64,000 nucleotides of DNA from Nocardioides baekrokdamisoli (lineage in GTDB: Bacteria; Actinomycetota; Actinomycetes; Propionibacteriales; Nocardioidaceae). Both the position numbers and the translations under genes were made by a program. The notes beneath the pieces are model-generated. The model was not told where the DNA came from and did not search any database. It saw nothing but the letters and a program-made list of their open reading frames with translations. How positions within the stretch are numbered: position 1 is the first letter of the stretch; each line of letters begins with the position of its first letter. The stretch is taken from the NCBI RefSeq assembly GCF_003945325.1, contig NZ_AP019307.1, positions 1,798,001-1,862,000 of the forward strand, given 5' to 3'. Shown one piece after another: positions 2,568 to 53,113 of the stretch.

Positions 2568-2645
2568 TTCATTGGCCGATCGTGCTGAGGATTTCGGACG
2601 TACGGCACTCCGCGCTAGAGTTCCACGGTCGTCCTCGGACGGCAT

Positions 2646-2719
2646 GCGGCTGTAGCTCAGCTGGATAGAGCATCTGACTACGGATCAGAAGGTCTGGGGT
2701 TCGAATCCCTACAGCCGCG
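2646..2719 (+). tRNA. tRNA-Arg(ACG), the integration target (attB)
   Basis: Acceptor arms GCGGCTG and CAGCCGC pair. The anticodon stem TCTGA/TCAGA holds the loop CTACGGA, giving ACG. The T-loop is TTCGAAT. CCA is not fully encoded. The last 37 bases of the gene are the start of the 40-bp core shared with 45026-45065. The tRNA stays intact after integration because the element supplies the same 3' end. On the opposite strand the anticodon loop provides the stop codon of the prophage repressor. Confidence 0.97.
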
Positions 2720-3022
2720 CAACATCGCGGAGCCACGCTCCGCAACGAGGAATAGAGAGCCTCCGCCAGCACCACGGCGGGGGCTCTCTGCATTTGTGAG
2801 CCACTCGATCGGTACGCCGGTCTTGAGCGCCCAGACGACGAGCGTCGCCCGGTTCGGGACTCCGCGACCGTTGATGTAGCGGCCGACAGTGTTCCGCTCC
2901 ACCTCCAGCTCGTCAGCCATTTCCTGAACGCCGACGCCTGAGACGCGGAGCGCCTTCCGCAGCCGGTCGGCCAGGTCCCATTGCAGATCGGCCCCAAGGC
3001 CCTCTGTTGTCGCTTCCGTCAT
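2678..3022 (-). CDS. XRE-family immunity repressor, prophage form (114 residues)
   Basis: A helix-turn-helix repressor: residues about 15-60 (LADRLRKALRVSGVGVQEMA, ELEVERNTVGRYINGRG, ATLVVWAL) form an XRE fold, with the second helix and the recognition helix clear. The C-terminal 15 residues are read from the att core and the tRNA antisense strand. The stop is TAG at 2680-2678, opposite the anticodon loop. In a circular phage genome the frame would run on past the core into 45025-44904, replacing the last residue with a 40-residue tail (153 residues in total). The promoter region is shared with the divergent Cro-like gene. Repressor identity is inferred from fold, position and divergence. Confidence 0.85.
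   Translation of the reverse strand: MTEATTEGLGADLQWDLADRLRKALRVSGVGVQEMADELEVERNTVGRYINGRGVPNRATLVVWALKTGVPIEWLTNAESPRRGAGGGSLFLVAERGSAMLRGCRDSNPRPSDP
2683..2722 (+). repeat. attL core of the prophage (40 bp)
   Basis: Forty bases from GATCAGAAGG to GCCGCGCAA, identical to 45026-45065. They cover the 3' part of tRNA-Arg from the anticodon stem to 3 bp past its end. The first 39 of these also occur at 53075-53113, where identity extends 9 bp further upstream (2674-2721 against 53066-53113). The repressor frame crosses this core on the minus strand. Confidence 0.93.
2754..2789 (+). terminator. Terminator supplied by the prophage to tRNA-Arg
   Basis: AGAGAGCCTCCGCC pairs with GGCGGGGGCTCTCT across an 8-base loop: 14 pairs with one U-G wobble on the plus strand. 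On the minus strand the wobble becomes an A-C mismatch, so the hairpin favours rightward transcripts, that is, tRNA-Arg. It lies 34 bp beyond the tRNA and inside the repressor coding sequence, so it serves both roles. The T-tract is poor. Confidence 0.7.
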
Positions 3023-3031
3023 GCATCAAGT

Positions 3032-3124
3032 GTTGCATTCCGATGTAGCGAAGCGCAACGGATACCGCATTGCGACACGCCCAAACATCCCGACATCCAT
3101 CGCTATCGAATGCAGCAATGCAAC
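3032..3124. promoter_or_regulatory. Divergent repressor/Cro promoter-operator region
   Basis: Between the repressor (start 3022) and the Cro-like gene (start 3135). GTTGCATT at 3032-3039 is the exact inverse of AATGCAAC at 3117-3124. A second related pair is TGCATTCCGATGTAGCGA (3034-3051) and TCGCTATCGAATGCA (3100-3114), alike apart from small insertions. A further GCATTGCG lies between them. This fits two operators with dyad symmetry around divergent promoters. No confident -10 or -35 element was assigned. Confidence 0.5.
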
Positions 3125-3134
3125 AGTTCCCCGC

Positions 3135-3368
3135 ATGGCTACCAGTGAGACCGAGATGGTCGGCACCGCGGAGATGACGGCGGCGCTCGACGTCGACCGC
3201 GCGACCGTCGCTCGCTGGGTCCAGCGCGGGATCGCGCAGCCTGCCGGGAAACTCCCCGGACCGAACGGCGCCTACTTCTTCGATCGCTCCGAGATCGAGC
3301 GCCTCCGCGTGCTGCGCGGCGACCGGAAGCAGATGCCAGCCCCGGAGGCGCTCATGCGCACCGCCTAG
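3135..3368 (+). CDS. Cro-like or excisionase-like HTH protein
   Basis: A 77-residue protein starting at ATG 3135 (MATSETEMVGTAEMTAALDV). A MerR/excisionase-type winged HTH is visible: DVDRATVARWVQRGI, then a basic wing and PNGAYFFDRSEIERLRV. It is divergent from the repressor and first in the rightward early region, the position of Cro in lambdoid phages and of the Cro-like gene in phage BPs. It could instead be the excisionase; the sequence does not settle this. An upstream in-frame ATG at 3021 would overlap the operators and the repressor start and is less likely. Confidence 0.75.
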   Translation: MATSETEMVGTAEMTAALDVDRATVARWVQRGIAQPAGKLPGPNGAYFFDRSEIERLRVLRGDRKQMPAPEALMRTA

Positions 3369-3481
3369 AGCCGGGACGCGGCCGCCGGCACTCACCGGAT
3401 CACACGGCAGCCGATCATCTGCCGCCACGCCGCCGGCCGCGCCCCAACAACAGAACGAACCCGACAACCAAGGAGCCACCC

Positions 3482-3817
3482 TTGAACAGCAACACCCCCA
3501 ACGCGCACTACGACGTGATGCAGGGCGAGCCACTGGTCGCCCGATCCCACATCGGCCAGGTCGTCCGAGCGGGCCGCACCCCCGACGGCGACGTCGTCCT
3601 CCTCCTCAGCCCCTACGCGGCCGAGCAGCTCGCGAAGAACCTCAGCCACTACGACATGCCCTGTCTATGCGGCAACCGCGACAAGGTCGACGGGTACGAC
3701 ACGGACCTCTGGGGTCACCATGTCCCACTCGGACTCCAGATGGCCACTGCTCTCAGCCTCCACGCGGCGGACGCGGCGGCGAAGGTCGTACATGTGCCCT
3801 TCGGGGAGCCGAAGTGA
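3482..3817 (+). CDS. Hypothetical phage protein with CxC motif
   Basis: 111 residues. The start is TTG at 3482, chosen because AAGGAG lies 8 bp upstream and no nearby ATG is placed as well. It begins MNSNTPNAHYDVMQGEPL and holds a short MPCLCGNRDK segment that could bind metal, then a helical C-terminus. First gene of a tightly packed early operon, with its stop overlapping the GTG of the HNH gene. Function unknown. Confidence 0.7.
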   Translation: MNSNTPNAHYDVMQGEPLVARSHIGQVVRAGRTPDGDVVLLLSPYAAEQLAKNLSHYDMPCLCGNRDKVDGYDTDLWGHHVPLGLQMATALSLHAADAAAKVVHVPFGEPK

Positions 3818-22574: not shown

Positions 22575-23687
22575 GTGACGCGACCCCAGGTCCTCGTCAA
22601 CGTCGCCGCCGCTCTTCAAGAGCGCGGCGCACCCACCGACACCGGTGTCGCCTTCATGGTGTACGCCGGCGCCACCGGCTCGACCACCCCGGTCGACTGC
22701 TACAGCAAGACCGACGCCCTCGCATCGTTGGCGCCGGACGCGATCGCGACCTACGTCGGGGATGCCCTCACGCAGGGTGCCCCGAAGGTGACGCTCCTGC
22801 GCGCGGCCGCGGTCGACGCGTCCGCCGTCACGCAGGCTGAATGGGCGACGGCCCTGGCGATGCTCACCATCGACCTCGGCCCCGGTCAGGTCCTCATCCC
22901 GGGCATCACCACCACGGCAGCCCACGACGCTCTGTTGGCTCACGGGGCGGCGACCGGGCGCTGTGTGCTCCTCGACGCCGCAGAGGACGCTGCCGCCGCC
23001 GACATCGCCACCCTCGCGGTGTCGTTGGCCGCGGCCGCCGGATCCACCAACGCCGGCCTCATCGCCGGATGGTCGGTCTTCCCGACGACCAGCGGCGCTA
23101 CCCGTGTCGTCCCCGGATCCGTCATCGCTGCTGGCCTGTGCGGCCGCGGTGACGCTGCCGCCGGGCACGCCAACAACGCACCCGCCGCCGACCAGGGCCG
23201 CGGAGCTGGCTACGTCCACGGTGCGTCGACCCTGTCGGTGCTCTACAGCGACAGCGATCACGACACCCTCAACGACGCCGGCGTCTGCGTCTTCAGGGTG
23301 TACCTCGGCCAGCCCCAGCTCTACGGATGGGTCAGCCTCTCCACCGACCCGAACTACCGGCAGCTCAACTGGGGCCGCATGGCGATGCAGCTCCGAGCCG
23401 GTATTGCCGCCGCCGCATCCACGTTCCTCTTCCGGCAGATCGACGCCCAGGGCTTCCTGTACAGCGAACTCGCCGGGATGCTGCGCGGCTACCTCGCCCC
23501 GCTGTGGGCCGCCGGCGCCCTCTTCGGCACCAGTGCCGCCGATGCCTTCGGCGTCGACGTCGCCGGCGTCAACACGCCCAGCACGGTCGCCGCCGGCGAG
23601 CTGCACGCCGCCGTCGACGCCTCCCTGTCCCCGCACACCGAGAAGGTCGTCATCGACGTGGTGACCAACATCGCCCAAGGAGCCTGA
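22575..23687 (+). CDS. Tail sheath protein
   Basis: 370 residues from GTG 22575 with AAGGAGG 5 bp upstream. The family pattern is clear: VNVAAALQERGAPTDTGVAF at the start, GVASVFP-like and SGATRVVPGSVIAAGLCGRG, then HANNAPAADQGRGAGYVHG, and a C-terminal domain with FRQIDAQGFLYSELAGMLRG. Sheath subunits contract around the tube on infection. This gene makes the phage contractile-tailed. Confidence 0.9.
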   Translation: MTRPQVLVNVAAALQERGAPTDTGVAFMVYAGATGSTTPVDCYSKTDALASLAPDAIATYVGDALTQGAPKVTLLRAAAVDASAVTQAEWATALAMLTIDLGPGQVLIPGITTTAAHDALLAHGAATGRCVLLDAAEDAAAADIATLAVSLAAAAGSTNAGLIAGWSVFPTTSGATRVVPGSVIAAGLCGRGDAAAGHANNAPAADQGRGAGYVHGASTLSVLYSDSDHDTLNDAGVCVFRVYLGQPQLYGWVSLSTDPNYRQLNWGRMAMQLRAGIAAAASTFLFRQIDAQGFLYSELAGMLRGYLAPLWAAGALFGTSAADAFGVDVAGVNTPSTVAAGELHAAVDASLSPHTEKVVIDVVTNIAQGA

Positions 23688-28593: not shown

Positions 28594-28877
28594 ACGACCC
28601 GATCCAGAAACTCTGGCGCGGCTACCAGGCGATCGAACGCCCACCGGTCACCGCCAAGGTCGTCAAGATCAACAGCCGCGGCATCTATGCCACACCGCTG
28701 CGTGGAGACACCCGAACCCCCATCGGGCCATGCCGCGGATCCAGTGACACCGCCGTCGGCGACATCTGCCTGGTCATCTTCACCCTCGAGCGTCCCTGGG
28801 CAATCACCGACGGCGCGCCCGGACCTGGATCGATCGGCATCCGAATCGACACCGACGGGGTTCCCTACTTCACCTGA
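28584..28877 (+). CDS. Baseplate protein with C-terminal DGVPY peptide
   Basis: 97 residues starting at ATG 28584, overlapping the hub gene by 10 bp. It reads VTAKVVKINSRGIYATPLRG and GDICLVIFTLERPWAITDGA, an OB-like barrel, which fits a spike or baseplate adaptor. It ends GSIGIRIDTDGVPYFT, a tail shared with the gp25 gene next to it. Overlaps the gp25 start by one base. Confidence 0.7.
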   Translation: MGVNDPIQKLWRGYQAIERPPVTAKVVKINSRGIYATPLRGDTRTPIGPCRGSSDTAVGDICLVIFTLERPWAITDGAPGPGSIGIRIDTDGVPYFT

Positions 28878-29365
28878 TGGAGGCGACCGTGCCCGCACAT
28901 CTCGCGTTCCCGCTGACCGTTGGCGCCAAGGGGCTCAGGACGGTTGTCCAGGACAGCGCTGCAGACATCGTGCAGTCGGTCGCGTTGCTCCTCGACACAC
29001 GCCCGACCGATCGACGCAGCGTGCCCGACTACGGGCTGCCGGATCCGACGTTCAGCGGGCTTGGAGTGTCCACACTGGCTGCGCTGATCGACGAGTGGGA
29101 ACCCCGCGCCGAGCCAGCAATCCTCGAACAGGTCCTCGCCGGCGTACTCGAGGTGATCAACGTCGCCCCCCTCGGCGCTGCCGCGTCGGCGACCTTCGCT
29201 CCGCCAGCCCGCGCCGGGATCGCCTTCGACGCCGACACCATCCCGTTCATCGGCCCGAAGGGGTCGCTCGGCGTCGGAACCGATCTCGACGGCGTCCCCT
29301 ACATCACGTCCAGCGACACCACGGTCTTCGGGACCGAGGCCGACGGCGTTCCGTACTACAGCTGA
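28877..29365 (+). CDS. GPW/gp25-family baseplate protein
   Basis: 162 residues. The gp25/lysozyme-like core is LAFPLTVGAKGLRTVVQDSA, LLLDTRPTDRRSVPDYGLPD and EPRAEPAILEQVLAGVLEVI, as in T4 gp25 and P2 gpW, the conserved wedge-sheath initiator protein. The last 40 residues are extra and repetitive: GTDLDGVPYITSSDTTVFGT and EADGVPYYS. This extension is absent from ordinary family members. No catalytic residues expected. Confidence 0.87.
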   Translation: MEATVPAHLAFPLTVGAKGLRTVVQDSAADIVQSVALLLDTRPTDRRSVPDYGLPDPTFSGLGVSTLAALIDEWEPRAEPAILEQVLAGVLEVINVAPLGAAASATFAPPARAGIAFDADTIPFIGPKGSLGVGTDLDGVPYITSSDTTVFGTEADGVPYYS

Positions 29366-33576: not shown

Positions 33577-34722
33577 ATGTCGTTCCAACCGCCGCAGCTC
33601 GAGACCGACGAGGACGCCGTCACCGCCAGGATCCTCGACGGCCTCGCCACTCGGCTGCCCGGCTGGGTTGCCATCGAAGGGGCCCCGGAGGTCGCCCTCG
33701 CCGAGGAGCTCGGCCGCGAGATCGCCAACCTCAACCAGGCCACGGCCCTCGTCATCGACACTGCGGCCGCCGCCGGCCTCGGACAGACAGCGTTCCAGTT
33801 CCCTGCCTACACCGGAGCCACCGCCACGATCGCGGCCGAGGTCACAGTCGCCAGCATCGGCGTCATCATCCCCGCAGGGTTCACCGTCATCGGGACCAAC
33901 CTCAATGGCGACGAGGTCGCGTTCGTTCTGCCGGCAGACGTCGCCGCCACCAGCGTGACCATGCCCGTGACGATGAACGCTCTCGTTCCCGGCGACGTCG
34001 GCAACGGCGTCCCGATCGGGTCGCTGGAGATCCTTAGCGCCAACACCAACATCGCCGCGGTCGACGCGACGGCAGCGTCCTCCAACGGGGCAGACGCCGA
34101 GGACGTCAACACCTACCTCGGCCGACTCGTCGACTACCTCTCCGCACTGCGACCCGGCGGCGTCAACGGAGCCGACCTGGCCGCACTCGCCCGAACCGTC
34201 CCGGGCGTCCACCGTGCACTCGGCGTAGACCTCTACGACCCGGCCGCCCCCACGACCCCGACCGAGCGCACCGTCACGGTCTTTCCGATCGACACCGCCG
34301 GCCGGCCAGTCAGCTCGCCGATCGCCACGCAGGTCCAAGCGGTCATCGAGGGCGCCCGCGAGGTCAACTTCATCGTCCACGTCGCCGACCCGGAGTACAC
34401 CGCCGTGCACATCGCCTTCGCGATCGTTGCCGAGACGGGGGCGGACACCAGCCTCGTGCACACCGAAGTGATCGCCGCCCTCTCAAAGTGGCTCAGCCAG
34501 TGGGGCGTCACGAGCTCAGATGATCAGGCATGGGTCGCTACCAACACCGTCAGGTTCACTGACGCCATCCGGGTCGCGGGCGCCGTCGCCGGCGTCGCGT
34601 ACATCTCGTCCCTCACCGTCAACGGCAGCACCGCCGACCTGGTGCTCGCCGGCGTCGCTGCACTTCCCGCGCCGCTCGACGACCCCACTGCACCGTCGAC
34701 GGTGACAGGGACAGTGTCTTGA
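33577..34722 (+). CDS. Baseplate J-like protein
   Basis: 381 residues, the usual gpJ/gp47 size. ILDGLATRLPGWVAIEGAPE and EELGREIANLNQATALVIDT at the start, and DVNTYLGRLVDYLSALRPGG, RTVPGVHRALGVDLYDPAAP, then VIAALSKWLSQWGVTSSDDQ match the family. gpJ forms the baseplate wedge with gpI. TTG start of gpI overlaps the stop. Confidence 0.9.
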   Translation: MSFQPPQLETDEDAVTARILDGLATRLPGWVAIEGAPEVALAEELGREIANLNQATALVIDTAAAAGLGQTAFQFPAYTGATATIAAEVTVASIGVIIPAGFTVIGTNLNGDEVAFVLPADVAATSVTMPVTMNALVPGDVGNGVPIGSLEILSANTNIAAVDATAASSNGADAEDVNTYLGRLVDYLSALRPGGVNGADLAALARTVPGVHRALGVDLYDPAAPTTPTERTVTVFPIDTAGRPVSSPIATQVQAVIEGAREVNFIVHVADPEYTAVHIAFAIVAETGADTSLVHTEVIAALSKWLSQWGVTSSDDQAWVATNTVRFTDAIRVAGAVAGVAYISSLTVNGSTADLVLAGVAALPAPLDDPTAPSTVTGTVS

Positions 34723-42336: not shown

Positions 42337-42604
42337 CCTACCTGAGCTGAACCGAGGCGCGCTGGGGACTGCCGTGCTGGCGTTCATCGAAAACGACGGA
42401 ATCCCTGCACAGCGACTCGAGACGGCCATCCGCGCCTACCTCTGGTCGATGGAGGAGGCCGACGCGACGGGTCTGCACCCGTCGTACAACGATCTGCGTC
42501 GGGCGCTCGGCAAGGAACCGATCCCGACGTGCCCGAAGTGCGGCGAGCGCGTACCGCACCGCGATGACAGTCGATGCGTACAGCCTCACGCGGGGCGCGA
42601 GTGA
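42329..42604 (+). CDS. Hypothetical protein with C-terminal CxxC
   Basis: 91 residues from ATG 42329. Helical, with LGTAVLAFIENDGIPAQRLE and LWSMEEADATGLHPSYNDLR, ending PTCPKCGERVPHRDDSRC, a small zinc knuckle. Its stop overlaps the GTG of the recombinase. Confidence 0.58.
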   Translation: MADLPELNRGALGTAVLAFIENDGIPAQRLETAIRAYLWSMEEADATGLHPSYNDLRRALGKEPIPTCPKCGERVPHRDDSRCVQPHAGRE

Positions 42605-43440
42605 CTCGAGGGCCGCAACCTCTCGCGGATCCGATCGCCCAGGCGTTCGTCGACTGGTCGACCGCTGAGAGGCATCCCGACACGACGGTGTCGCGGCGTC
42701 GTAGCGTGCTCCGATCGGTCGGCAACCCGGGGACGGCCACGCGCGAGGAGATCGAGGAGTGGTGGGCCTCCCAGCGGCACCTGAAGGACTCCAGCCGGGC
42801 CAACGCCCTGGCGATCCTGCGCGGGTTCATCAAGTGGTGCCAGATCTGGGAGTACCGCACCGACGATCCTACGGTCCGGATCCAGGCCCCGAAGGTGAAC
42901 CCGGGCAAGCCGAACCCCACAAAGAAGCACGAGCTCGACCTCATCTTCGAGCATCTGCGCGACCCGGCCGTCCGCGACTATGTGCAGCTGCGCCGCGCAG
43001 TACTCCTCGGCGTCGCGGCCGGCCTGCGGCGTGCGGAGGCCGCCGGGCAGGACTGGTGCGACATCGACCCGGCGACCAGGACTGCGCGCGTGACCGGGAA
43101 GGGCGGGAAGGTCCGTAACGTCAAACTCTCCGCGAAGTTGCTCGAGGAACTCGGACCGCCGATGCCGCGCGGGAACGTCATCACCCGCGAGGAAGCCGCG
43201 TGGCGGCCGGACACGCTCGGGCGGAAGGTCAACCGGGAGATCCGTGCCGCCGGCGTCGCCTCGACCATGCACAAACTGCGCCACCGGTACGGCACCGACG
43301 CATTCAGGGCCACCAAGGACCCGCGGGCAGTCGCCGAGCAACTCGGGCACGCGTCCCCGTCGACGGCCCTGCTGTTCTACATCGACGCCGACGACGAAGC
43401 AGCCGACATCATCGCGACCGCGGCCTCGGCGAACTGGTGA
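42601..43440 (+). CDS. Tyrosine recombinase, rightward (second recombinase of the prophage)
   Basis: 279 residues from GTG 42601, XerC/D-like size. All catalytic residues are visible: Arg143 in AAGLRRAEAAG, Lys in VTGKGGKVRN, His224 and Arg227 in HKLRHRYG, His250 in LGHASPSTALLF and Tyr260. The N-terminal SAM-like core-binding domain is at about 9-95. It is not beside an att site and faces the other recombinase. Possible roles: dimer resolution, DNA inversion, or a relic of an acquired module. Confidence 0.87.
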   Translation: MTRGPQPLADPIAQAFVDWSTAERHPDTTVSRRRSVLRSVGNPGTATREEIEEWWASQRHLKDSSRANALAILRGFIKWCQIWEYRTDDPTVRIQAPKVNPGKPNPTKKHELDLIFEHLRDPAVRDYVQLRRAVLLGVAAGLRRAEAAGQDWCDIDPATRTARVTGKGGKVRNVKLSAKLLEELGPPMPRGNVITREEAAWRPDTLGRKVNREIRAAGVASTMHKLRHRYGTDAFRATKDPRAVAEQLGHASPSTALLFYIDADDEAADIIATAASANW

Positions 43441-43715
43441 GGCGGCTCGACCTCAGGCCGAAGCCGAGGCACCTGTACGACCCTCTCGCTGACGAACCTG
43501 AACTCAGCGACGAGGACCGCGTCGACGGCGAACCGCTCACCCAGCACTACGAGGCCGCGCGCCGCCGGATCCAGCAGCATCTTGAGCGCACCGATCTCGA
43601 CGAGGAGACCAGGACCAAACTGACCGGCCACCTGCAGATCTTCCGGCTCCTCTGGGAGCGGGAGACGATCGAGGATCACTGGACCAGCGGCGAGGGCGAC
43701 AGGAAGCTCTTCTAG
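43437..43715 (+). CDS. Hypothetical protein downstream of rightward recombinase
   Basis: 92 residues from GTG 43437 (GTGA overlap with the recombinase stop). Acidic and helical, with DPLADEPELSDEDRVDGEPL and RRRIQQHLERTDLDEETRTK. The last codon region reads CTAG, shared with the convergent integrase stop. Probably co-expressed with the recombinase. Could be a directionality partner. Confidence 0.58.
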   Translation: MRRLDLRPKPRHLYDPLADEPELSDEDRVDGEPLTQHYEAARRRIQQHLERTDLDEETRTKLTGHLQIFRLLWERETIEDHWTSGEGDRKLF

Positions 43716-44662
43716 ACCGCGGTGGACTCCCCGTCGTGCCGCGCCATCGGGACGACCACGTTCTCGCCCATGCGGCGCTCATACTGCCGCTCCTGGGCCG
43801 CCGCCCGCGTCGAGTAACCGGCGTTGACGGCCGCCCGCCACCGCTTCTGGTTGACCTTCACGTACAGCATCGTCGTGTTGAGGCCGGCGTGCCCAAGCAG
43901 TTCCTGCACGACGCGCATGTCCCCACCGGACGCCTCGGCCATGTTCGTGCCGGCACGGTGCCGCAGCTTGTGCATCGTCCACCCACCCTCGAGAGCGCGG
44001 GAGACTAGGTTCCCCACCCTCTGGGGCGACAGGTGCCCGTCGATCCGACCAGGGAATGCGTATCCGGCTGGTGCCCGGAGCAGCTTCATGGCTGTCGTTG
44101 CCTCGAGGGGAACGATTCGAGTCTTGCCGCCCTTCCCGTGCACGATCAACGACCAGCCGTCCAGGTCCTCAACGAGGTCGCGCTCCGGCCACACCAACGT
44201 AACCTCGCCGCGACGTAGACCATGGCCAGCCGCGAGCTCGAGCATCAACTGCAGCCGGTCATCGGCGTCGAGAAGCGCGTTGTCGTAGACCCGGTCCGGG
44301 CACGGCATCGGATTGGGCGGCGGCGGATCCACCTTCGGGATCACATTCGCCGGCGACGCCACGACGAACTCGGCGTCCATGGCCCAGCGGTAGAACGCCC
44401 GCATCGTGGTCCGCTTCGACCGGTACGTGTTGGCGGCCCAGTCATGCGCCGCGAACCAGTGCAGCAGCTCGTCGCCGGTCAACTCCCAGGGCCCGACCTC
44501 GATGCCTTTCGCCAGCTGCTGAAGGTGGTCAGAGCGGGTGCGGATAGTGGCCGGCGGGTAGCGGTGAAGCCGGCCCCATTCTGAGAACTCCGCGATCGCG
44601 GCGCGCCAGGACGCCAGATGATGCGTCAAACCCCCAGCCCCCCAACTCGCCCGAGAACCCAT
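43712..44662 (-). CDS. Tyrosine integrase of the prophage
   Basis: 316 residues. Active-site residues: Arg150 in AAGHGLRRGEVTLV, Lys180 in VHGKGGKTR, His231 and Arg234 in HKLRHRAGT, His258 in LGHAGLNTTMLY and Tyr267. An N-terminal core-binding domain spans about 20-105. It reads away from attR, 364 bp from the core. In the circular phage it lies just downstream of the repressor in the same direction, so a shared transcript is possible. This orientation and position make it the more likely att integrase. Confidence 0.9.
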   Translation of the reverse strand: MGSRASWGAGGLTHHLASWRAAIAEFSEWGRLHRYPPATIRTRSDHLQQLAKGIEVGPWELTGDELLHWFAAHDWAANTYRSKRTTMRAFYRWAMDAEFVVASPANVIPKVDPPPPNPMPCPDRVYDNALLDADDRLQLMLELAAGHGLRRGEVTLVWPERDLVEDLDGWSLIVHGKGGKTRIVPLEATTAMKLLRAPAGYAFPGRIDGHLSPQRVGNLVSRALEGGWTMHKLRHRAGTNMAEASGGDMRVVQELLGHAGLNTTMLYVKVNQKRWRAAVNAGYSTRAAAQERQYERRMGENVVVPMARHDGESTAV

Positions 44663-44903: not shown

Positions 44904-45025
44904 TCAAGCCGACGCCTTGCCGGATTCTGGCCGAACGGAGGATGCGCGAGCAGCCCGGATCTCGGAAAGATAGATGACCTCGGCTACCCTCGGCTCAGCG
45001 AGGGAGGGAACCATGCCAGACCACA
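44904..45025 (-). other. Alternative repressor C-terminus encoded at the right prophage end
   Basis: Joined to the repressor frame through the 40-bp core (as in attP), this stretch reads LWSGMVPSLAEPRVAEVIYL followed by SEIRAARASSVRPESGKASA and a TGA at 44904. It is 40 residues and in frame with codon 113 of the repressor. In the prophage it is cut off from the repressor and has no start of its own. A nonpolar small-residue end (ASA) resembles C-terminal degradation tags. Inference from sequence. Confidence 0.7.
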
Positions 45026-45065
45026 GATCAGAAGGTCTGGGGTTCGAATCCCTACAGCCGCGCAA
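45026..45065. repeat. Prophage attR and element 2 attL (shared core)
   Basis: Forty bases identical to 2683-2722, from GATCAGAAGG to GCCGCGCAA, of the tRNA-Arg 3' part. To its left is prophage, to its right element 2, so this one copy serves both. It lacks the anticodon arm, so it is not a tRNA gene. Identity to the third copy (53075-53113) is 39 bp. Confidence 0.92.
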
Positions 45066-45071
45066 GACGGG

Positions 45072-45115
45072 AAACCGCCTCTGAACTGCGAAAACGTGGG
45101 TATCAGAGGCGGTTT
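45072..45115 (+). terminator. Terminator just inside element 2 left end
   Basis: AAACCGCCTCTGA pairs with TCAGAGGCGGTTT, 13 perfect pairs, then TCTTTT. Placed 7 bp after the att core, it would end tRNA-Arg transcription when element 2 alone occupies the tRNA. Confidence 0.88.
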
Positions 45116-45292
45116 TCTTTTCGCAAAGCACTCGCCGTGCGCTCGGTCGTGCAATCTCCGTGCAATCAGACCCGGCCTGATACGGCCCCAGACGCACGAA
45201 CGCCGGGCGGTCGCTTCCGTTGCTGGCGCGAGCCGTCCGGCGTCGTGTTTGGCCACCTATTTGGCCGGCCACCTGTTTGGCCGTGGTTCTGG

Positions 45293-45517
45293 TCAGACCA
45301 GCGCGAACAGGTCGCTGAACTCCTTGCCTGTGGCGATCATCAGCGCGGCGACAAGTTCGGGGGTAGCGCCGCCCTCGTCGTCGAGCAGCCCATAGGAGTG
45401 GAGAGACTCCGACGAGTGCAGTGCGGCCAGCGGGGCGAGGTTGCTGGCCAGTCGGGCGCGCCCCGGGTCGATGGTCTGGAGCGCCTCAAGGGCGGTGGGC
45501 TTCGGTTTGATGGTCAT
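45293..45517 (-). CDS. Small hypothetical protein of element 2
   Basis: 74 residues starting at the ATG at 45517. TALEALQTIDPGRARLASNL, SLHSYGLLDDEGGATPELVA and LMIATGKEFSDLFALV are helical. No family recognised. It lies alone, 175 bp from the terminator, away from the other genes of the element. Confidence 0.5.
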   Translation of the reverse strand: MTIKPKPTALEALQTIDPGRARLASNLAPLAALHSSESLHSYGLLDDEGGATPELVAALMIATGKEFSDLFALV

Positions 45518-45911
45518 GCTGCGAGCCTTGCTGGCCAGTCCACAAAACGCCAGGCGATCTCACTAGCCGGGGGTGCTCTCCGGCGTGTCGCAGTTGCCGT
45601 GGACATCCCCCCGGGTTTCTTACGCTCAAAACCAACCAGATGCTTCCACTATCGCCAGGCTGGCTCACAAACTTCTGCCACTTCGGCATCCGCTTTCTAT
45701 TTACCTGGAGCAGCGAGAGGGGCATTGTGTGGCCCCGTAGCGAGCGCGCCAGCGCTCAGCGAAGCGGGACGCATTGTGCCCCGGCAGTGTCAGTGCCAAC
45801 ACCGAATGGTTCTCGCTCGCTGACCGCGCCCGCACTCAATGCTCGGCAGAGGGCCCAGCGCAAGCGGCGAGCTGGTTGCTCTTTGGTGCGACCACGCGTC
45901 GCCGGGTTCGT
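45518..45911. other. Gene-poor stretch in element 2
   Basis: About 390 bp with no convincing coding sequence on either strand. It holds a hairpin GAGCGC-GCCA-GCGCTC and two similar GCATTGTG-n-GCCCC segments 50 bp apart. It could contain a regulatory RNA, an origin or only sequence remnants. No firm assignment. Confidence 0.3.
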
Positions 45912-46475
45912 TCAGCCGATTTCGGCAACCAGCCGGCGGGCGGCCATGTTTGCTCGCCCGTAGACGAGCAGCCAGTTGTGCTTGGCCGTTTCAGTGAACT
46001 TGCCGGGGTTGAGCGCGTCCAAGACGATAGCGCCGTAGACCTGGTGGGCGTTCACTAAGTGCTTCCGCAGTTCGACCCAATCAGCGCTTGTCGCAGCGGT
46101 CCCCGAGCTTGCGGCCAGGTCCGACAACAGCCGTGGCATCCGAGCCGTTATGTCGGTGACGTCGTTATAGAGCTGCTTCGCCTGCTCATGTGTGTCTTCG
46201 CTGGGTTGTTCCCTCCAAAAGCGCCAGTTGTCGCTAAGCATTTGCACGCCGGCAGACATAAAGGCGAGTTCATCCATGACGTTCTGGCACAGCGCGCGAG
46301 CGTCGTCCCGGTTGCGTGATTGCCGTTCGTATTCGTGTTTGTCGCGATCATGCTGGAGGCGTTCTCGGTCCAGGTCGCGTTGACCACCAGCGACCTTCAA
46401 GGAGATAGCGGCCGACACGGCTGCGGCGACAACCGATGAGGAAGCTGCGGCTGCCGCGATTGCTTCGAAACTCAT
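45912..46475 (-). CDS. Membrane-anchored hypothetical protein of element 2
   Basis: 187 residues starting at ATG 46475. An N-terminal hydrophobic helix (FEAIAAAAASSSVVAAAVSA) precedes a charged coiled coil (QRDLDRERLQHDRDKHEYER) and a helical domain (QVYGAIVLDALNPGKFTETA). Resembles the membrane-bound partner proteins found with integrative elements and defence genes, but no family is recognised. 8 bp from the J-like gene and probably co-transcribed. Confidence 0.65.
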   Translation of the reverse strand: MSFEAIAAAAASSSVVAAAVSAAISLKVAGGQRDLDRERLQHDRDKHEYERQSRNRDDARALCQNVMDELAFMSAGVQMLSDNWRFWREQPSEDTHEQAKQLYNDVTDITARMPRLLSDLAASSGTAATSADWVELRKHLVNAHQVYGAIVLDALNPGKFTETAKHNWLLVYGRANMAARRLVAEIG

Positions 46476-46483
46476 GTGACGTC

Positions 46484-47068
46484 CTAGTTCGGTGGCTCGC
46501 CTTGAGCGAGCAGTCGACGCGCCTCATTCTCCTCAAGATCGAAGTCGGAGTCGTACCAGTGCTCCCAGCCAGCCGCTCGGGCGATCACGACCAGCCCGGC
46601 AACCATGCCGGCGAGGCTGCCGACTGGGAGATTGCCGCCGATCAGTGCAAGGGCTTCAATCTTGTCGATCACTGCATTGAGTTCGCGTGCACAAACCACG
46701 TCAACGAACCCGGTGCGTTCTACTTCTCTGGCAATCGACTCCATCGCATCGGTCACGAGCGCATTGAAGCCGTCGAAGCCGTTGTCGAAAGTGACTGCAG
46801 CGTCATTGCCTCCGAGCGTCACTGCAGCGCTGGGAAGTTCGGGACGGGAGAGGATCTCGAGACTCTCGTCGTAAGCGGCCCTGTGGTCGGCGTTGAGCAG
46901 CAAGACAGCGGCTCGCGCCCTGCTGGAGTCGGCCTCAAAATCGTGCGATGCGCCGTTCGCCTTGATGTCAGTGATCGACTCGGCGACGAATCGCTGAGTC
47001 GCCTCGGCAATCTCGACAATCGTTGCGCTCTGACGGACTCCCAGGAGGTCGTACAGGGTCGTGGGCAC
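46484..47068 (-). CDS. J-domain-like protein lacking the HPD motif
   Basis: 194 residues from GTG 47068, chosen because AGGAG lies 8 bp upstream. Residues 1-65 look like a J domain: TTLYDLLGVRQSATIVEIAE at the start and LLLNADHRAAYDESLEIL at the end. The HPD tripeptide required to stimulate Hsp70 is absent, so DnaK activation is unlikely. A hydrophobic segment (GNLPVGSLAGMVAGLVVIAR) follows. It lies between the RepA-like ATPase and the membrane protein. Confidence 0.68.
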   Translation of the reverse strand: MPTTLYDLLGVRQSATIVEIAEATQRFVAESITDIKANGASHDFEADSSRARAAVLLLNADHRAAYDESLEILSRPELPSAAVTLGGNDAAVTFDNGFDGFNALVTDAMESIAREVERTGFVDVVCARELNAVIDKIEALALIGGNLPVGSLAGMVAGLVVIARAAGWEHWYDSDFDLEENEARRLLAQGEPPN

Positions 47069-47198
47069 CGTTGCGGCTCCTGAACGGTTTCGAGGGGCCC
47101 GCCTGGCCCGAGATGGCGCGCATCGCAACGTATCGCGTCCAAGGCTGCCTGTGCGCGGTTTCCGTACTCCGCTAGCGCCGAAGAATCCTCCGAAGGGA

Positions 47199-47235
47199 CC
47201 GAAGAATCCACGCCTCTAAGACGTGGATTCTTCGG
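47199..47235 (-). terminator. Strong hairpin at the RepA-like stop codon
   Basis: CCGAAGAATCCACG and CGTGGATTCTTCGG form 14 perfect pairs around a 9-base loop that includes the TAG stop. A further GGATTCTTCGG copy follows on the minus strand. It may end or attenuate transcription from the ATPase into the J-like gene. Confidence 0.55.
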
Positions 47236-48643
47236 GTTCTTCGTCGTCCCTTGGTGGCAGGGAGTCGCTGAGAGACCAGACCCACCCGGACCCGAAACCG
47301 GCTTTGCTCGTCACCACACCAGCGGCTTTCCGAGCGCGTGTCAGGGCCGTCTTGCCGATGCCCGCAGCAGCGCCGGCCTTGATCGTTTCGCCGGCGCCGG
47401 ACGATCCTCCGTGCTCCGACAGGTAGCCCTTCAACCACTCAGCGGCTTCTGACGCCTCGTCAGCCGCATCAGGGTCCCGACCGGACTCACGGAGGATCTG
47501 CTCCACACTGCGATCTGATGTCCCAGTGAACACGAGGCGGCCTGTCTCGGCCTGTCCTCGCGGAGTCGCGATTGCCGCCGTCTCAATGGCGTAGGTCAGT
47601 GACGGCAGGTTGTCCCGGCCGAGGCTGTTCTTCACTTGCGACATCACGCGTCGTCCGGCGTCGTCCTCGGACTCGTCCCGGGCGAAACCGAAGATGGCGC
47701 GTGGCACGTCCTTGAATGCGCCAGAGCCAGAGATGAGGCTGGCCGGGTCGCTGCCGTTGCTCTTGCCGAAGTGGGCGATACCCAAGATGATCGCGCCCGT
47801 TGATGAGGCCATCAGAGCCAAGGGGTCGAGAGCTCTCCTGACCTCCCGGTTCTTGTGGGTGTCGATCCCTTCGCCCATCACCGACATGAGCGGGTCGATG
47901 ACCACCAGCGCCGCGGCGTGTTCGGCGATTGCTGCCTCGAGCTGCTTGTTGTCCGTGGGGAGCGAGAGGGTCACTTCGCTGTCGTCAGACCGCACAGCGT
48001 CTACCCGATAGATCCGTGACAGGTCCGCTCCGGCGGCCATCAGTCTCGGCACGAGGGTATGACTCCAGGAGTCCTCCACCGCGACGTAGAAGACCACGCG
48101 CGGTCCCCCGTAGAGGTTCCCTGGCAGCGTGCCCGTGCTGATCCTGGCGGCCTTCCAGATCCCAAACGACGACTTGCCAGTGCCCTCGCGCCCCGCAGCC
48201 ATGACGAGCGAGCCAGACGGGATCCGGCCCTCCCCGCCGTCCTTCCAGGCCCACACAACCGGCTCAGGGTCGATGTCGCTGGCACGCGTCAGTCGGAGCG
48301 TACGGACCTCGCCGCGCCGGGCCTGCTGGTCGGTAGACGCCTCCTGCGGCCCAATGGCAGAGCCTTCCGGCGACCAATCGACCCCCACGCGCTTGCATGC
48401 CCACGCCCACCGTTCGTCGTGTTCTTTCCCAGCATGGCCGGGCGGTGTGTGCGCCCTAAGGTCGGCCTCAGCCCTCGCCAGCGAGTAGCCCGACTGTGTC
48501 GAATTGGCAATCCGGACCAGGCTTTCGGCCGCATCGGCGGCGGCCTGCTGCGAGGAGGCGTCCGCCCAGACCGCCGGGAGGCTGGCAAGGCGCCCCAGCG
48601 CGTGGTCGACCATTCTCGGCGCGTGCGCTCCGAGGCCGCTCAT
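47216..48643 (-). CDS. RepA-like AAA/RecA-fold ATPase
   Basis: 475 residues. Walker A is GREGTGKSS at about 151-159 and Walker B is AALVVIDPLMSV with Asp250. SNGSDPASLISGSGAFKDVP and the following RVMSQVKNSLGRDNL match the hexameric RepA/AAA_25 helicase-like group found in plasmids and integrative elements. The C-terminal 90 residues look like a winged HTH (EAAEWLKGYLSEHGG, GIGKTALTRARKAAGV). Probable replication initiator or helicase of the excised element. Overlaps the upstream gene by 4 bp. Confidence 0.85.
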   Translation of the reverse strand: MSGLGAHAPRMVDHALGRLASLPAVWADASSQQAAADAAESLVRIANSTQSGYSLARAEADLRAHTPPGHAGKEHDERWAWACKRVGVDWSPEGSAIGPQEASTDQQARRGEVRTLRLTRASDIDPEPVVWAWKDGGEGRIPSGSLVMAAGREGTGKSSFGIWKAARISTGTLPGNLYGGPRVVFYVAVEDSWSHTLVPRLMAAGADLSRIYRVDAVRSDDSEVTLSLPTDNKQLEAAIAEHAAALVVIDPLMSVMGEGIDTHKNREVRRALDPLALMASSTGAIILGIAHFGKSNGSDPASLISGSGAFKDVPRAIFGFARDESEDDAGRRVMSQVKNSLGRDNLPSLTYAIETAAIATPRGQAETGRLVFTGTSDRSVEQILRESGRDPDAADEASEAAEWLKGYLSEHGGSSGAGETIKAGAAAGIGKTALTRARKAAGVVTSKAGFGSGWVWSLSDSLPPRDDEEPEESTS

Positions 48644-48927
48644 GGGGCAAGGGTGAGATGGGTAGGGATCTGGAGGCAGGCCAGCGGGTAGACCCGCGTG
48701 CCTGCAGCCCTGGCCCGCCGAATCGCTGCCCTGGCGCCGTCGACCGTGTGATAGGTGCGGTGACTCGTTGTGCCCGCTGCCGAATGGAATGAGAGTTGGA
48801 GGACCAAGTCACTGCCGACGCGCTGCTCCTCCTCTTCGGTGAGGTGACGGTGTGTTGCCGGGGGTGTCAGGTCGAAGCTCTCCGTGGCGGGCGGGGTCTT
48901 CAGGGAAATCTGGGGGCCCTTGCTCAT
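48640..48927 (-). CDS. Hypothetical protein of element 2
   Basis: 95 residues starting at ATG 48927. It has an acidic stretch (HLTEEEEQRVGSDLVLQLSF) and a helical basic end (RAAIRRARAAGTRVYPLACL). Overlaps the excisionase-like stop by one base and the ATPase start by 4 bp. No family recognised. Confidence 0.58.
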   Translation of the reverse strand: MSKGPQISLKTPPATESFDLTPPATHRHLTEEEEQRVGSDLVLQLSFHSAAGTTSHRTYHTVDGARAAIRRARAAGTRVYPLACLQIPTHLTLAP

Positions 48928-49121
48928 TACGAGGCGCCGTTCTGGATCGGAGCCATCCATGCGTCGACCGATGCGACGCTGAGGCGGATGATTCTCCCGA
49001 CCTGGAATCCCTCGATCTCTCCTCGCGAGAGGGCTCGGCGGATCGTCCTGTCGTTGATCTGGTTGCGTGCGGCGGCTTGCTGGATGGATTCCAGGGGCCC
49101 GCGCGGGGTGCGGTTGGTCAT
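48927..49121 (-). CDS. Excisionase-like HTH protein
   Basis: 64 residues. ESIQQAAARNQINDRTIRRA, LSRGEIEGFQVGRIIRLSVA is a MerR-type winged HTH as in Xis proteins of actinobacterial elements. First gene of the leftward operon with hypothetical protein and RepA-like ATPase, the usual xis-rep order. Possible alternative: a transcriptional regulator of the operon. Confidence 0.8.
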   Translation of the reverse strand: MTNRTPRGPLESIQQAAARNQINDRTIRRALSRGEIEGFQVGRIIRLSVASVDAWMAPIQNGAS

Positions 49122-49480
49122 TGACCGTCCTTCCGATAGGTATCAGAGAGGTCTTCGTCGTACGGCTCGCAGGAACGCAGTACGCGAGTCCAGTCAGGCG
49201 CACGCCAGACATGCCCCGACGTCCTCGCCGGATCTGGTCTCACGCTGAGTCGGACCGCTTTCGCTAGTCGCTACCGGGTCCAGAGAAAGCGAGTATCCCG
49301 GCGTACTCAATTGCGTTTCCGCAGGTCAGGGGCATATTTCGGCCCACCCACCAAGGGCGAATATGTGCCGACGAGGCACCTTCCCATTCGGGGAGCGCAC
49401 AATCCGAGGTCCCAACTCCTCCGCCAAGCCTGAGGACTGACGCACTGCGTACCGCCCAGAACGACGCTCTCTCCCTCTGC
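49122..49480. other. Regulatory gap between the two halves of element 2
   Basis: About 360 bp without a gene, upstream of the leftward xis-rep operon and downstream of the RES toxin gene. It contains an imperfect inverted repeat near 49329-49369 (GGGCATATTTCGGCCC and GGGCGAATATGTGCC), which could be an operator or a replication origin. Probably carries the operon promoter; no clear -10 was assigned. Confidence 0.35.
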
Positions 49481-50044
49481 TCACGAGCCGGTCAAGAAGC
49501 AGACGACGGCGGGATCGATCGTCGGGCGTCCAACCTCAGCAACGTCCACGACGGTCCACGTGGAGACGTCGGGCTCGTCGAATAGAACTAAGTTCCACGA
49601 ACCCGCTGACGCGGCAGACGGATACACGATCCCGACGGCGCCGTCAGCCCGGGCAGCAGCGGCGAACTCTTGGCAGGCCTTCCACCTCTTGGCCGGCTCT
49701 GGATCCGACGAAACCAATTCCGCTGGGTCTATGCCTGCAGCAAACGCATCAGCGGTACTCCGCACGTCGACTAGTCGTCCCCAGACCTCAATCTCGATTT
49801 CAAAGACGGTGACCTTGACACCACCCTGAACGCTAAGAAGCGAGGGATTGATCCTGAAGAACTCCGCCATTGCTGCCGCCGATGACTCTGCGAGGTAGAG
49901 CGTGGGCCAGCCTCCGGCACCGAAGCGGCCGACTGAGTAGGGGTTCGGCGCCGCCGGTGAATAGACGGGCACGTCGACGTCCCGCATGAATTTGTATAGA
50001 CGCAGCCTGGTCTCGGGCGCGCCCGATCCCGACTCCGACGACAT
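49481..50044 (-). CDS. RES-domain toxin
   Basis: 187 residues. The RES fold is indicated by RLRLYKFMRDVDVPVYSPAA, RFGAGGWPTLYLAESSAAAM, AEFFRINPSLLSV and VGIVYPSAASAGSWNLVLFD, with the Arg, Glu (AEFF) and Ser (YPSAAS) positions expected in NAD-degrading or NAD-phosphorolysing toxins such as MbcT. It starts 5 bp after the antitoxin stop, the usual antitoxin-first order. Would deplete NAD and halt growth when unopposed. Confidence 0.85.
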   Translation of the reverse strand: MSSESGSGAPETRLRLYKFMRDVDVPVYSPAAPNPYSVGRFGAGGWPTLYLAESSAAAMAEFFRINPSLLSVQGGVKVTVFEIEIEVWGRLVDVRSTADAFAAGIDPAELVSSDPEPAKRWKACQEFAAAARADGAVGIVYPSAASAGSWNLVLFDEPDVSTWTVVDVAEVGRPTIDPAVVCFLTGS

Positions 50045-50049
50045 GTTGG

Positions 50050-50538
50050 CTAGCTAAAGGATGTCTGCGAGAAGTGCTCAGCTAAGGCGGCGACTTTCGC
50101 GCGGTCCCGCGAGTTGCCGGTCAGGCACTTAAGCGGTGTGTTTCCTTGCAGATCGGGAGTTGGCGTCCTAAGCCAGGTTTCCAGATACTCGTCCTCTAGC
50201 ACCAGCCGGACCTGAGCGAGCACGTCGGCGAGCGGTTTCCATTTGGCAGCGACCGTCTTAGGAATCGAAGTGCGCCCGTGAACGAGTCGCTCGAGGTGCG
50301 CGGGCTTAACGTCCAAAAGCTTGTAGAGCGTCTCGCTCTCGACGCTAGCAAGCTGACCGACGACTAGGCCTAGTAGGGCGAGCCCATCCCCAGACTTCAG
50401 CGACTCCACTGCCTTGATCTGAGTTGCATCGAGGGGAGTCTCGCGTACTTCTGTCGCTCGCATACTTCGCTGAGCCTCCACTGCTCCTGCAACGGAAGAA
50501 GGACGGGTCACATCTAGATCGACGGTCAAACTATTCAC
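50050..50538 (-). CDS. Xre/MbcA/ParS-type antitoxin
   Basis: 162 residues. The C-terminal MbcA/ParS domain (DUF2384) contains LVLEDEYLETWLRTPTPDLQ and GNTPLKCLTGNSRDRAKVAA. The middle (LLDVKPAHLERLVHGRTSIP) is an Xre-like HTH that would bind the operon promoter. It overlaps the TIGR04255 stop by 8 bp. It neutralises the RES toxin by contact, as known for MbcTA and ParST pairs. Confidence 0.85.
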   Translation of the reverse strand: MNSLTVDLDVTRPSSVAGAVEAQRSMRATEVRETPLDATQIKAVESLKSGDGLALLGLVVGQLASVESETLYKLLDVKPAHLERLVHGRTSIPKTVAAKWKPLADVLAQVRLVLEDEYLETWLRTPTPDLQGNTPLKCLTGNSRDRAKVAALAEHFSQTSFS

Positions 50539-51307
50539 CCCTCGGGGTCGGCCGCAGTGTTTCTTTGTACGGTTCTTTCAATGCCCACTCGAAGAAGCTA
50601 GTTATACCGTTCGACAGGTGTCGAACCAGGTCGCGGATATCAGCCGAGTCCTTAACCGCATACGGCACTTCGGTGTGGTAATCCATATCCAAGATGAAGA
50701 AGGCCTTGTCCTCGACGCTTCCTTCGATCGCGTAGCGAACCGCGAGTTGCTTCAGGTCTTCCTCAAAAATCAGCTGGCCGCTGGCACCTTTCACAAGCGC
50801 GGGCCAGTCATCACGTGCAATCGGACCCAGTAGGTCCTCGCGGATGCGCGCCGTGAGCGATGCGGGGCTCGACGGATCAGGCAGGGGTACGGCGTTGATT
50901 TTTCGCAGGCCGATCCGCCGACTAGTCGACGGCATTAGCGTTCGGTCAATTGCGGCGAGAAGGAAACCCAGTTGGCCGAGAAAATCGCCGAAGTTGGTGT
51001 AACTGGGAGTCTCAAGCGCGATGAAGTCGTGCGACAGGCTTGCCTTGTAGTCCGCCGCCGCCGTCGAGAAGGACCACACCGGTGCGGTCTGTCGCACGCT
51101 CATGTGCCGCGGGGCCATCTCGAGCGCTAGTTCTTCGATCTTCTTGGGACCTTCTGGATAACGGCTTCGGATCACGCTATGGAATCCAGTTGTGCCGGCC
51201 TCAGTGAGAAGCGAAGGAATCGGGTCGAAACGGATCTGTGCGAGCACAGACCTAAGTGGAGCGTCCTTGAAGACGCGGTCGGGATGCTCGCCGAAATCGA
51301 GGGCCAC
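50531..51307 (-). CDS. TIGR04255-family protein
   Basis: 258 residues. The family start is visible as VFKDAPLRSVLAQIRFDPIP, and the body as VWSFSTAAADYKASLSHDFI, ALETPSYTNFGDFLGQLGFL and DYHTEVPYAVKDSADIRDLV. Members occur sporadically in mobile and defence regions and have no proved function. Here it opens an operon with antitoxin and toxin, overlapping by 8 bp, so it may be a third component or sensor. Confidence 0.78.
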   Translation of the reverse strand: MALDFGEHPDRVFKDAPLRSVLAQIRFDPIPSLLTEAGTTGFHSVIRSRYPEGPKKIEELALEMAPRHMSVRQTAPVWSFSTAAADYKASLSHDFIALETPSYTNFGDFLGQLGFLLAAIDRTLMPSTSRRIGLRKINAVPLPDPSSPASLTARIREDLLGPIARDDWPALVKGASGQLIFEEDLKQLAVRYAIEGSVEDKAFFILDMDYHTEVPYAVKDSADIRDLVRHLSNGITSFFEWALKEPYKETLRPTPRGE

Positions 51308-51618
51308 TCCGACTCCCTTCGCGCCTACTTGGTTACCAATGCGGCATGCGGCTCACAACCGATCGTAGTGCGGCCTGCACAAGACAGTATGAGATGCGGA
51401 CCCGACCCTCGGTCATGTGGCGCCGTCGGGCGCGTCAGATCGCCGCGACCACAGCGGGGCCGGAGTTCTAGCGTGGTGTTCTCTGCCTCGTGCCGGTGAG
51501 GCGACGCTGGGCGGGGTTCCGCCTCCGTCGCCAGGTGAACACCGATGACCGCGACGACACTTCTCCCGTACCAACCAGACACGATGACCACGGCCCAGCT
51601 CGCGCGCTGGCGGCGTCC
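51308..51618. promoter_or_regulatory. Region between integrase and TIGR04255 operon
   Basis: About 310 bp. It should hold the promoter of the leftward TIGR04255-antitoxin-toxin operon. Near 51498-51530 a hairpin (GGCGACG with CGTCGCC plus an inner GGCGG/CCGCC) could end the integrase transcript. No coding sequence is convincing. Confidence 0.35.
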
Positions 51619-52905: not shown

Positions 52906-53065
52906 GGCTCGGCTCCCGTTCGTGCAACCTACGTGCAATCGGCTGAGTGCATCTGAGTTCATCCTAGGGTACCGAATCAGAAGGTTTGCGAATCGTATCC
53001 GCGAATCTACGCGTGAAATGGCATCTGAGTCCGCCAGTGTCTATGTATGCAATCCGGCTCGCTGG

Positions 53066-53113
53066 CTGACTACGGATCAGAAGGTCTGGGGTTCGAATCC
53101 CTACAGCCGCGCA
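53066..53113 (+). repeat. attR of element 2 (third tRNA-Arg 3' copy)
   Basis: 48 bases identical to 2674-2721, including part of the anticodon arm (CTGACTACG) and the T-arm and acceptor 3' strand. It is not a complete tRNA because the D-arm and acceptor 5' strand are absent. Downstream is chromosomal sequence with the original terminator. Confidence 0.92.

Follow-up and report, generated by a model that had tools for sequence, protein, structure and literature searches.

What follows when a prophage repressor gene runs across the attachment core and ends inside the tRNA gene that serves as integration site? The question is raised by a prophage of Nocardioides baekrokdamisoli, which was analysed in a window of 64,000 nt, the whole stretch of DNA studied (GCF_003945325.1, NZ_AP019307.1, positions 1,798,001-1,862,000 of the forward strand), and all coordinates below are counted from its first letter. 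The prophage is bounded by two att cores, attL at 2683..2722 and attR at 45026..45065, which are identical over exactly 40 bp. The first overlaps the attB gene, a tRNA-Arg(ACG) at 2646..2720 (+) recognised by ARAGORN and Rfam and intact at attL. A third copy of the core, 48 bp long (53066-53113), was absent from the initial annotation and reveals a second element (45066-53113) in tandem. This 8-kb element, inserted at the same tRNA-Arg as the prophage, has its own integrase (447 residues, 51619-52962, -), a primase/helicase-like AAA protein (47216-48643, -) and a RES-domain protein (49481-50044, -) next to a protein of 162 residues (50050-50538, -), the last two perhaps forming a RES/Xre toxin-antitoxin pair; at its left end a U-tailed hairpin stands immediately past the core. 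The prophage itself contains a second tyrosine recombinase gene of 288 residues (42574-43440, +), close to the integrase gene.

In its prophage form the repressor gene occupies 2678..3022 (-) and encodes 114 residues with an HTH domain (HTH_3 over cut-off; phrog_2328, E 2.9e-22). Its stop codon, TAG at 2678-2680, is host DNA directly outside the core and touches the anticodon ACG (2680-2682), which agrees with the earlier description of an XRE-type repressor that ends antisense in tRNA-Arg with its stop by the anticodon. That description also placed 15 codons inside the core and tRNA, a figure that is right if the stop is counted, while the coordinates (2681-2722) give 14 coding codons. When the prophage ends were joined in silico, the attP core lay in frame within the repressor ORF and the frame stayed open through the core to a stop at 44904, yielding 153 residues, so that the two lengths first proposed were confirmed by recomputation. 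The 40 residues said to be added are correct as the length of the new end, although they take the place of one residue and the net gain is 39. The detached 3' end of the phage-form gene, defined by the joined ORF and by tail alignments, lies at 44904..45025 (-) and encodes a tail ending in KASA. Integration thus exchanges the repressor C-terminus for a host-supplied stop, and the protein passes from 153 to 114 residues.

The repressor is separated by a divergent control region (3023..3134) from an excisionase/MerR-like HTH gene at 3135..3368 (+; phrog_66, E 5.7e-6; HTH_17 below cut-off), for which a longer ORF begins at 3021 and the start at 3135 is our choice. This operator-like interval contains an inverted pair of the 9-mer AATGCAACA, a candidate operator, and its heptamer TTGCATT occurs nowhere else in the window; no promoter consensus was found in 3023..3134. 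At the opposite end of the prophage lies a tyrosine integrase gene (43712..44662, -; PF00589) encoding 316 residues, which in the joined form is the next gene downstream of the repressor, in the same direction and 241 nt past the repressor stop. Among the best 20 matches listed, the integrase shared 43-46% identity with the enzymes of Barebow (46%), of a M. abscessus prophage and of other phages including Angel (45.5%), a member of cluster G.

Similar repressors were present in 141 phage records (tblastn, E 1e-5). The best matches were Pclasvirinae mycobacteriophages, with 43-53% identity among the 60 matches listed, followed by Gordonia, Arthrobacter and Curtobacterium phages, and the nearest homologues are annotated as immunity repressors of cluster P mycobacteriophages. 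A divergent HTH/excisionase gene, a repressor and an integrase follow one another in this order in Purky, BigNuz, Malithi, Donovan, Hibiscus, SallySpecial, Twister6 and Barebow, and the rejoined form of the window has the same order as these eight phages; in BlueFeather no integrase adjoins the repressor.

Within the order to which the host belongs, 30 of 391 genomes, its own included, matched the 153-residue query (E 0.001). A phrog_2328 profile search of 396 genomes of the phylum matched all of its control genomes (14/14) and was used for no count. The regions of ten relatives were compared for tRNA overlap and cores. In nine of the ten the repressor-side ORF ends antisense within a tRNA-Arg or tRNA-Lys gene, the tenth (G336) having no tRNA at that end, and the repressor ORF is short or frame-split in two of the nine (G230 and G078). 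Both cores could be found in five relatives, one of which (G172) has two right-hand cores, the 35-bp one being used. Rejoining these five extended the ORF by 14-28 codons past the core, to the ends RAA, LAA, IAA, SVA and VAA, so that the rejoined forms end in alanine in 5/5 cases. Further loci were taken from genome contigs (n = 13) and viral contigs (n = 47), 60 in total. Where an integrase lies downstream (18 of the 60), the repressor ends in Ala in 15, Ser in 2 and Asp in 1, as against Ala before 12.3% of 1436 other stops in those loci, while none of the eight prophage forms that overlap a tRNA gene antisense ends in Ala; 34 of the 60 loci fall into neither class. Nine viral contigs (L172, L174, L175, L177, L178, L183, L189, L193 and L194) encode repressors with short tails ending in IAA, LAA or WAS, with no T-arm pattern in the ORF. 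Six of the 13 named genome loci (L151, L153, L157, L158, L160 and L161) have a related repressor ORF ending antisense in a tRNA gene; they come from Xylanimicrobium, Nocardia, Canibacter, Microbacterium, Candidatus Lumbricidophila and Mycobacterium, and the arrangement is thus spread over the phylum.

The element that carries this repressor, 42.3 kb in length, has genes for a tail sheath protein (22575..23687, +; phrog_23, E 1.5e-26; no Pfam match), a baseplate gp25-like protein (28877..29365, +; phrog_5026; PF04965 at 27.1 bits, cut-off 27.2) and a baseplate J-like protein (33577..34722, +; PF04865, E 1.3e-20; phrog_6), as well as tape measure and NlpC/P60 proteins. With sheath and baseplate genes present, a contractile tail is indicated. 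The initial annotation had called the prophage contractile-tailed, and the Baseplate_J, gp25-like and sheath genes are indeed present, the last by PHROGs and not by Pfam.

Among the structural relatives found, the closest are the viral contigs G314 and L050 and a prophage of genome G074, with 52-60% identity in the sheath. A search of the G074 region, G314 and L050 for the same module gave no repressor match at E 1e-4; integrase matches were weak and on other contigs in G074 and were absent from the G314 and L050 records. Conversely, none of 31 records with related repressors, some of which may be fragments, gave a sheath match. Among nine genomes with related prophages a sheath match was found in one, G230, about 71 kb from the repressor in the direction that leads away from the prophage. 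Arthrobacter phage Bumble gave a sheath match, but neither an integrase nor an immunity repressor is annotated in it. That the repressor here sits in a phage whose nearest structural relatives gave no repressor match fits repressor, attP and integrase travelling as a unit.

In the mechanism that we propose, attP would lie in frame inside the repressor gene of the phage circle, which would encode the 153-residue protein, and its C-terminal tail may serve as a protease signal. Integration at tRNA-Arg, as read from the attL sequence, detaches this tail, and a stop codon from the host closes the reading frame after 114 residues. The shorter form would be stable and is predicted to repress the lytic genes via the 3023-3134 region. 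In our judgement this phage, with its genes for a contractile tail, very probably carries an integration-dependent immunity switch like that of BPs and cluster P. The same switch as in mycobacteriophages, in a contractile-tailed setting, had been the central proposal of the initial annotation, and it is supported by the cluster P homologues, the recurring arrangement and the Ala endings in 5/5 and 15/18 relatives.

The part of the repressor gene next to the core has a further property, one absent from the initial annotation. On the tRNA strand, a 7-bp hairpin (2727..2743, +) begins 4 nt past the core and is followed by a 15-bp hairpin with an 8-nt loop (2753..2790, +), a probable replacement terminator of tRNA-Arg. 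By folding, both lie inside the codons of the GGGSLF linker of the repressor, the larger one antisense to approximately residues 78-90. The 2721-2810 fold has a z of -5.8; synonymous recodings folded as well in 0/200 cases and reached the stem score in 0/500.

Stems in this position are common in related loci. On the phage side, a stem of at least 8 bp (one mismatch allowed) was present in 10/10 loci examined, 2-30 nt past the core or tRNA end. For a larger count, 80 repressors were assembled from the 60 loci, 9 genomes and 11 phage records; 33 lacked a T-arm pattern, 3 were duplicates and 44 were kept. A perfect stem of at least 9 bp was found in 28/44 distinct repressors with a tRNA T-arm in the ORF and in 1/24 without the pattern (Fisher P 1.3e-6, a value that ignores kinship and compares regions of different length). 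Of the 33 without the pattern, 24 were scored as controls, with duplicates, short ones and BlueFeather dropped, and their regions were 30-255 nt long against approximately 84 nt. The sole control with such a stem is L197, and two other controls, L157 and L199, hold a tRNA T-arm with a different T-loop. Twenty-two of the 28 stems sit 16-24 nt from the T-loop, that is, just past the tRNA end, whereas those of Charlie and L202 sit 57 and 53 nt away. The T-arm repressors without a 9-bp stem were L153, L154, L155, L158, L168, L173, L186, L190, L196, L201, L205, L209, BigNuz, Brujita, G040 and Hibiscus, the stem being present with mismatches in G040 and Hibiscus. In 27/44 T-arm repressors the native sequence beat 95% of its synonymous recodings, and when the folding energy of 84 nt was compared with 200 synonymous recodings, at most 10/200 were as good in 5/9 genome loci and 6/10 phages.

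From these folds we consider that the hairpin probably replaces the tRNA terminator that integration displaces. On the strand opposite the linker codons, such a replacement terminator would shield the repressor from head-on transcription of the tRNA gene. A different role, which is possible but doubtful, is that the hairpin instead binds the integrase or an accessory protein as part of attP, or acts as an element of the repressor mRNA. The linker hairpin recurs, inverted and imperfect, across the core from 2753-2790, between the repressor and integrase genes of the phage form (44834..44862, -; 24 of 29 identical, with 0/300 shuffles as good), as an integrase site would give. The U-tracts on the phage side are weak, with 2-4 T in 8 nt compared with 3-5 past core 2 where a host stem is present (four relatives), and a consensus terminator scan of 2600-3500 found none; both speak against a terminator. 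The second copy, however, was found in 0/5 relatives tested, and the association of the stem with the tRNA T-arm in the count above likewise speaks against these other roles. So do the arms, whose mean identity between loci is 0.39 and which, when swapped, pair at 52% (n = 26, chosen for stems of at least 9 bp within 50 nt, so that their own pairing is complete by selection). Moreover, a stem of 10-17 bp stands within 5 nt past core 2, a similar distance, in 4/5 relatives. In the window a U-tailed hairpin stands past core 3; the strict stem search missed two hairpins of the window, that of element 2 and that of the host, for which folding gave z -4.4 and -5.4.

Read as a replacement terminator, the hairpin would make the 3' part of integration-dependent repressor genes overprinted in three ways, encoding protein on one strand together with the att core and, on the other strand, a terminator in place of the one lost by the invaded tRNA gene. 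In the lysogen it would end the tRNA transcript and shield the repressor gene from head-on transcription, being part of what makes immunity work and shaping the linker across several orders of Actinomycetota. We give this proposal an even chance, a slightly lowered estimate, since the weak U-tracts on the phage side and the second hairpin copy keep the explanation as an integrase site in play.

As for the switch itself, the overlap might instead be incidental, the gene encoding an ordinary repressor and crossing attP with its 3' end by chance, with both forms equally active and no degron; we regard this as quite unlikely. The open frame alone is not significant, as a 40-codon stretch drawn at random from the prophage is open in 58.4% of cases, and GC by codon position in the tail (0.65/0.60/0.68) is unlike that of the prophage genes (0.68/0.50/0.86), both of which an incidental overlap would explain. 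The tail alignments argue otherwise. Out of 2000 shuffles, the alignment beat 2000 with P0045, 1997 with P0008, 1982 with P0002 and 1956 with Purky, while those with P0004, Hibiscus, P0010 and L171 were not significant (four of the eight tails tried). The tail is thus meaningful through its relatives and not through its open frame and, judged by these alignments, it is homologous to the tails of P0045, P0008, P0002 and Purky, the first three of which weigh against an incidental overlap. A VIxL-like motif in the tails was noted by eye. In P0045 an apparently different HTH domain is joined to the same linker, core and tail as in the window repressor, and Brujita and Donovan (L008 and L091) have almost the same tail although their N-terminal parts are dissimilar, so that core and tail behave as a module, as if the HTH domain were swapped while core and tail remain with the integrase.

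The phage-form repressor ends in ASA, as does the P0045 tail, and the host ssrA tag in ALAA; the missing canonical LAA end would suit an incidental overlap. The integrase ends in TAV, without an ssrA-like tag, and the Charlie integrase in AVS, an ssrA-like integrase end being usual but not invariable in integration-dependent immunity. The endings ASA and TAV, which count against the switch, consist of small residues and are not the canonical pair; they are compatible with a degradation tag and do not prove one. Further against an incidental overlap, relatives repeat both the arrangement and the terminal Ala, and the nearest of them belong to cluster P, for which integration-dependent immunity with few exceptions is reported (PMC4557955, PMC9635641). 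That the prophage has decayed, with the repressor cut by integration, excision lost and the switch a relic, is very unlikely in spite of the tandem element at the same tRNA and the broken or frame-split repressor ORFs of G230 and G078, given that the cores are identical here and that open frames are present for terminase, portal, protease, capsid, sheath, tape measure, baseplate and integrase.

An integration-dependent switch at this locus has much in common with those of clusters G (BPs), I, N and P, namely attP in the repressor gene, a repressor and tyrosine integrase that are codirectional, a shorter prophage form, a divergent small HTH/excisionase gene and a tRNA attB. It differs from them in host order, in sheath and baseplate genes in place of a siphoviral tail, and in the ends ASA (phage form) and TAV (integrase). 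Cluster P integration is reported at tRNA-Thr, in contrast to the tRNA-Arg(ACG) used here. A lack of arm-type integrase sites beside the core also belongs to the description of integration-dependent immunity; here 11-bp repeats across the core, with one mismatch, number 14 versus 2.8 in shuffles, and the cases listed fall in the linker hairpin and in its inverted copy. Related repressors also occur in Hibiscus, Twister6, SallySpecial, BlueFeather and Barebow, phages of Gordonia, Arthrobacter and Curtobacterium. In all of these except BlueFeather the integrase adjoins the repressor, as in the window, but Hibiscus and Twister6 gave no sheath match, and genome size is just 16-18 kb in SallySpecial, Barebow and BlueFeather. 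For Gordonia phages in which attP has been mapped, features of the switch are reported in about half (PMC5559632). The sections of PMC9262239 and PMC5513430 consulted do not describe a contractile-tailed phage with integration-dependent immunity, although both papers use both terms; 'integration-dependent immunity' and 'contractile tail' also both occur in PMC13314858.

Two further systems resemble parts of the locus. In cluster K mycobacteriophages a putative stem-loop terminator adjoins the attP core, as the hairpin does here, but it lies between the core and the arm-type site P3 and not inside a repressor gene (PMC3203893). In M. abscessus T36 two elements stand in tandem at one tRNA gene, as in the window; both of those have integration-dependent immunity (PMC9934374), whereas the second element here is the 8-kb one with its own integrase. 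No description of a terminator hairpin inside integration-dependent repressor genes was found in the literature searched, and the word 'terminator' is absent from the main texts, as far as these were accessible, of PMC4557955, PMC9934374, PMC5559632, PMC8092301, PMC6109161 and PMC9262239. Of all parts of the locus, the overprinted hairpin has the best chance of being new.

The locus very probably presents a known switch in a new setting, a phage with contractile-tail genes, the kind being known from other phages of the same bacterial phylum. An HTH gene that ends antisense in a tRNA gene, with a hairpin adjoining, provides a search signature for such prophages in genomes, and such switches would be constrained in their design by the overprinted hairpin.
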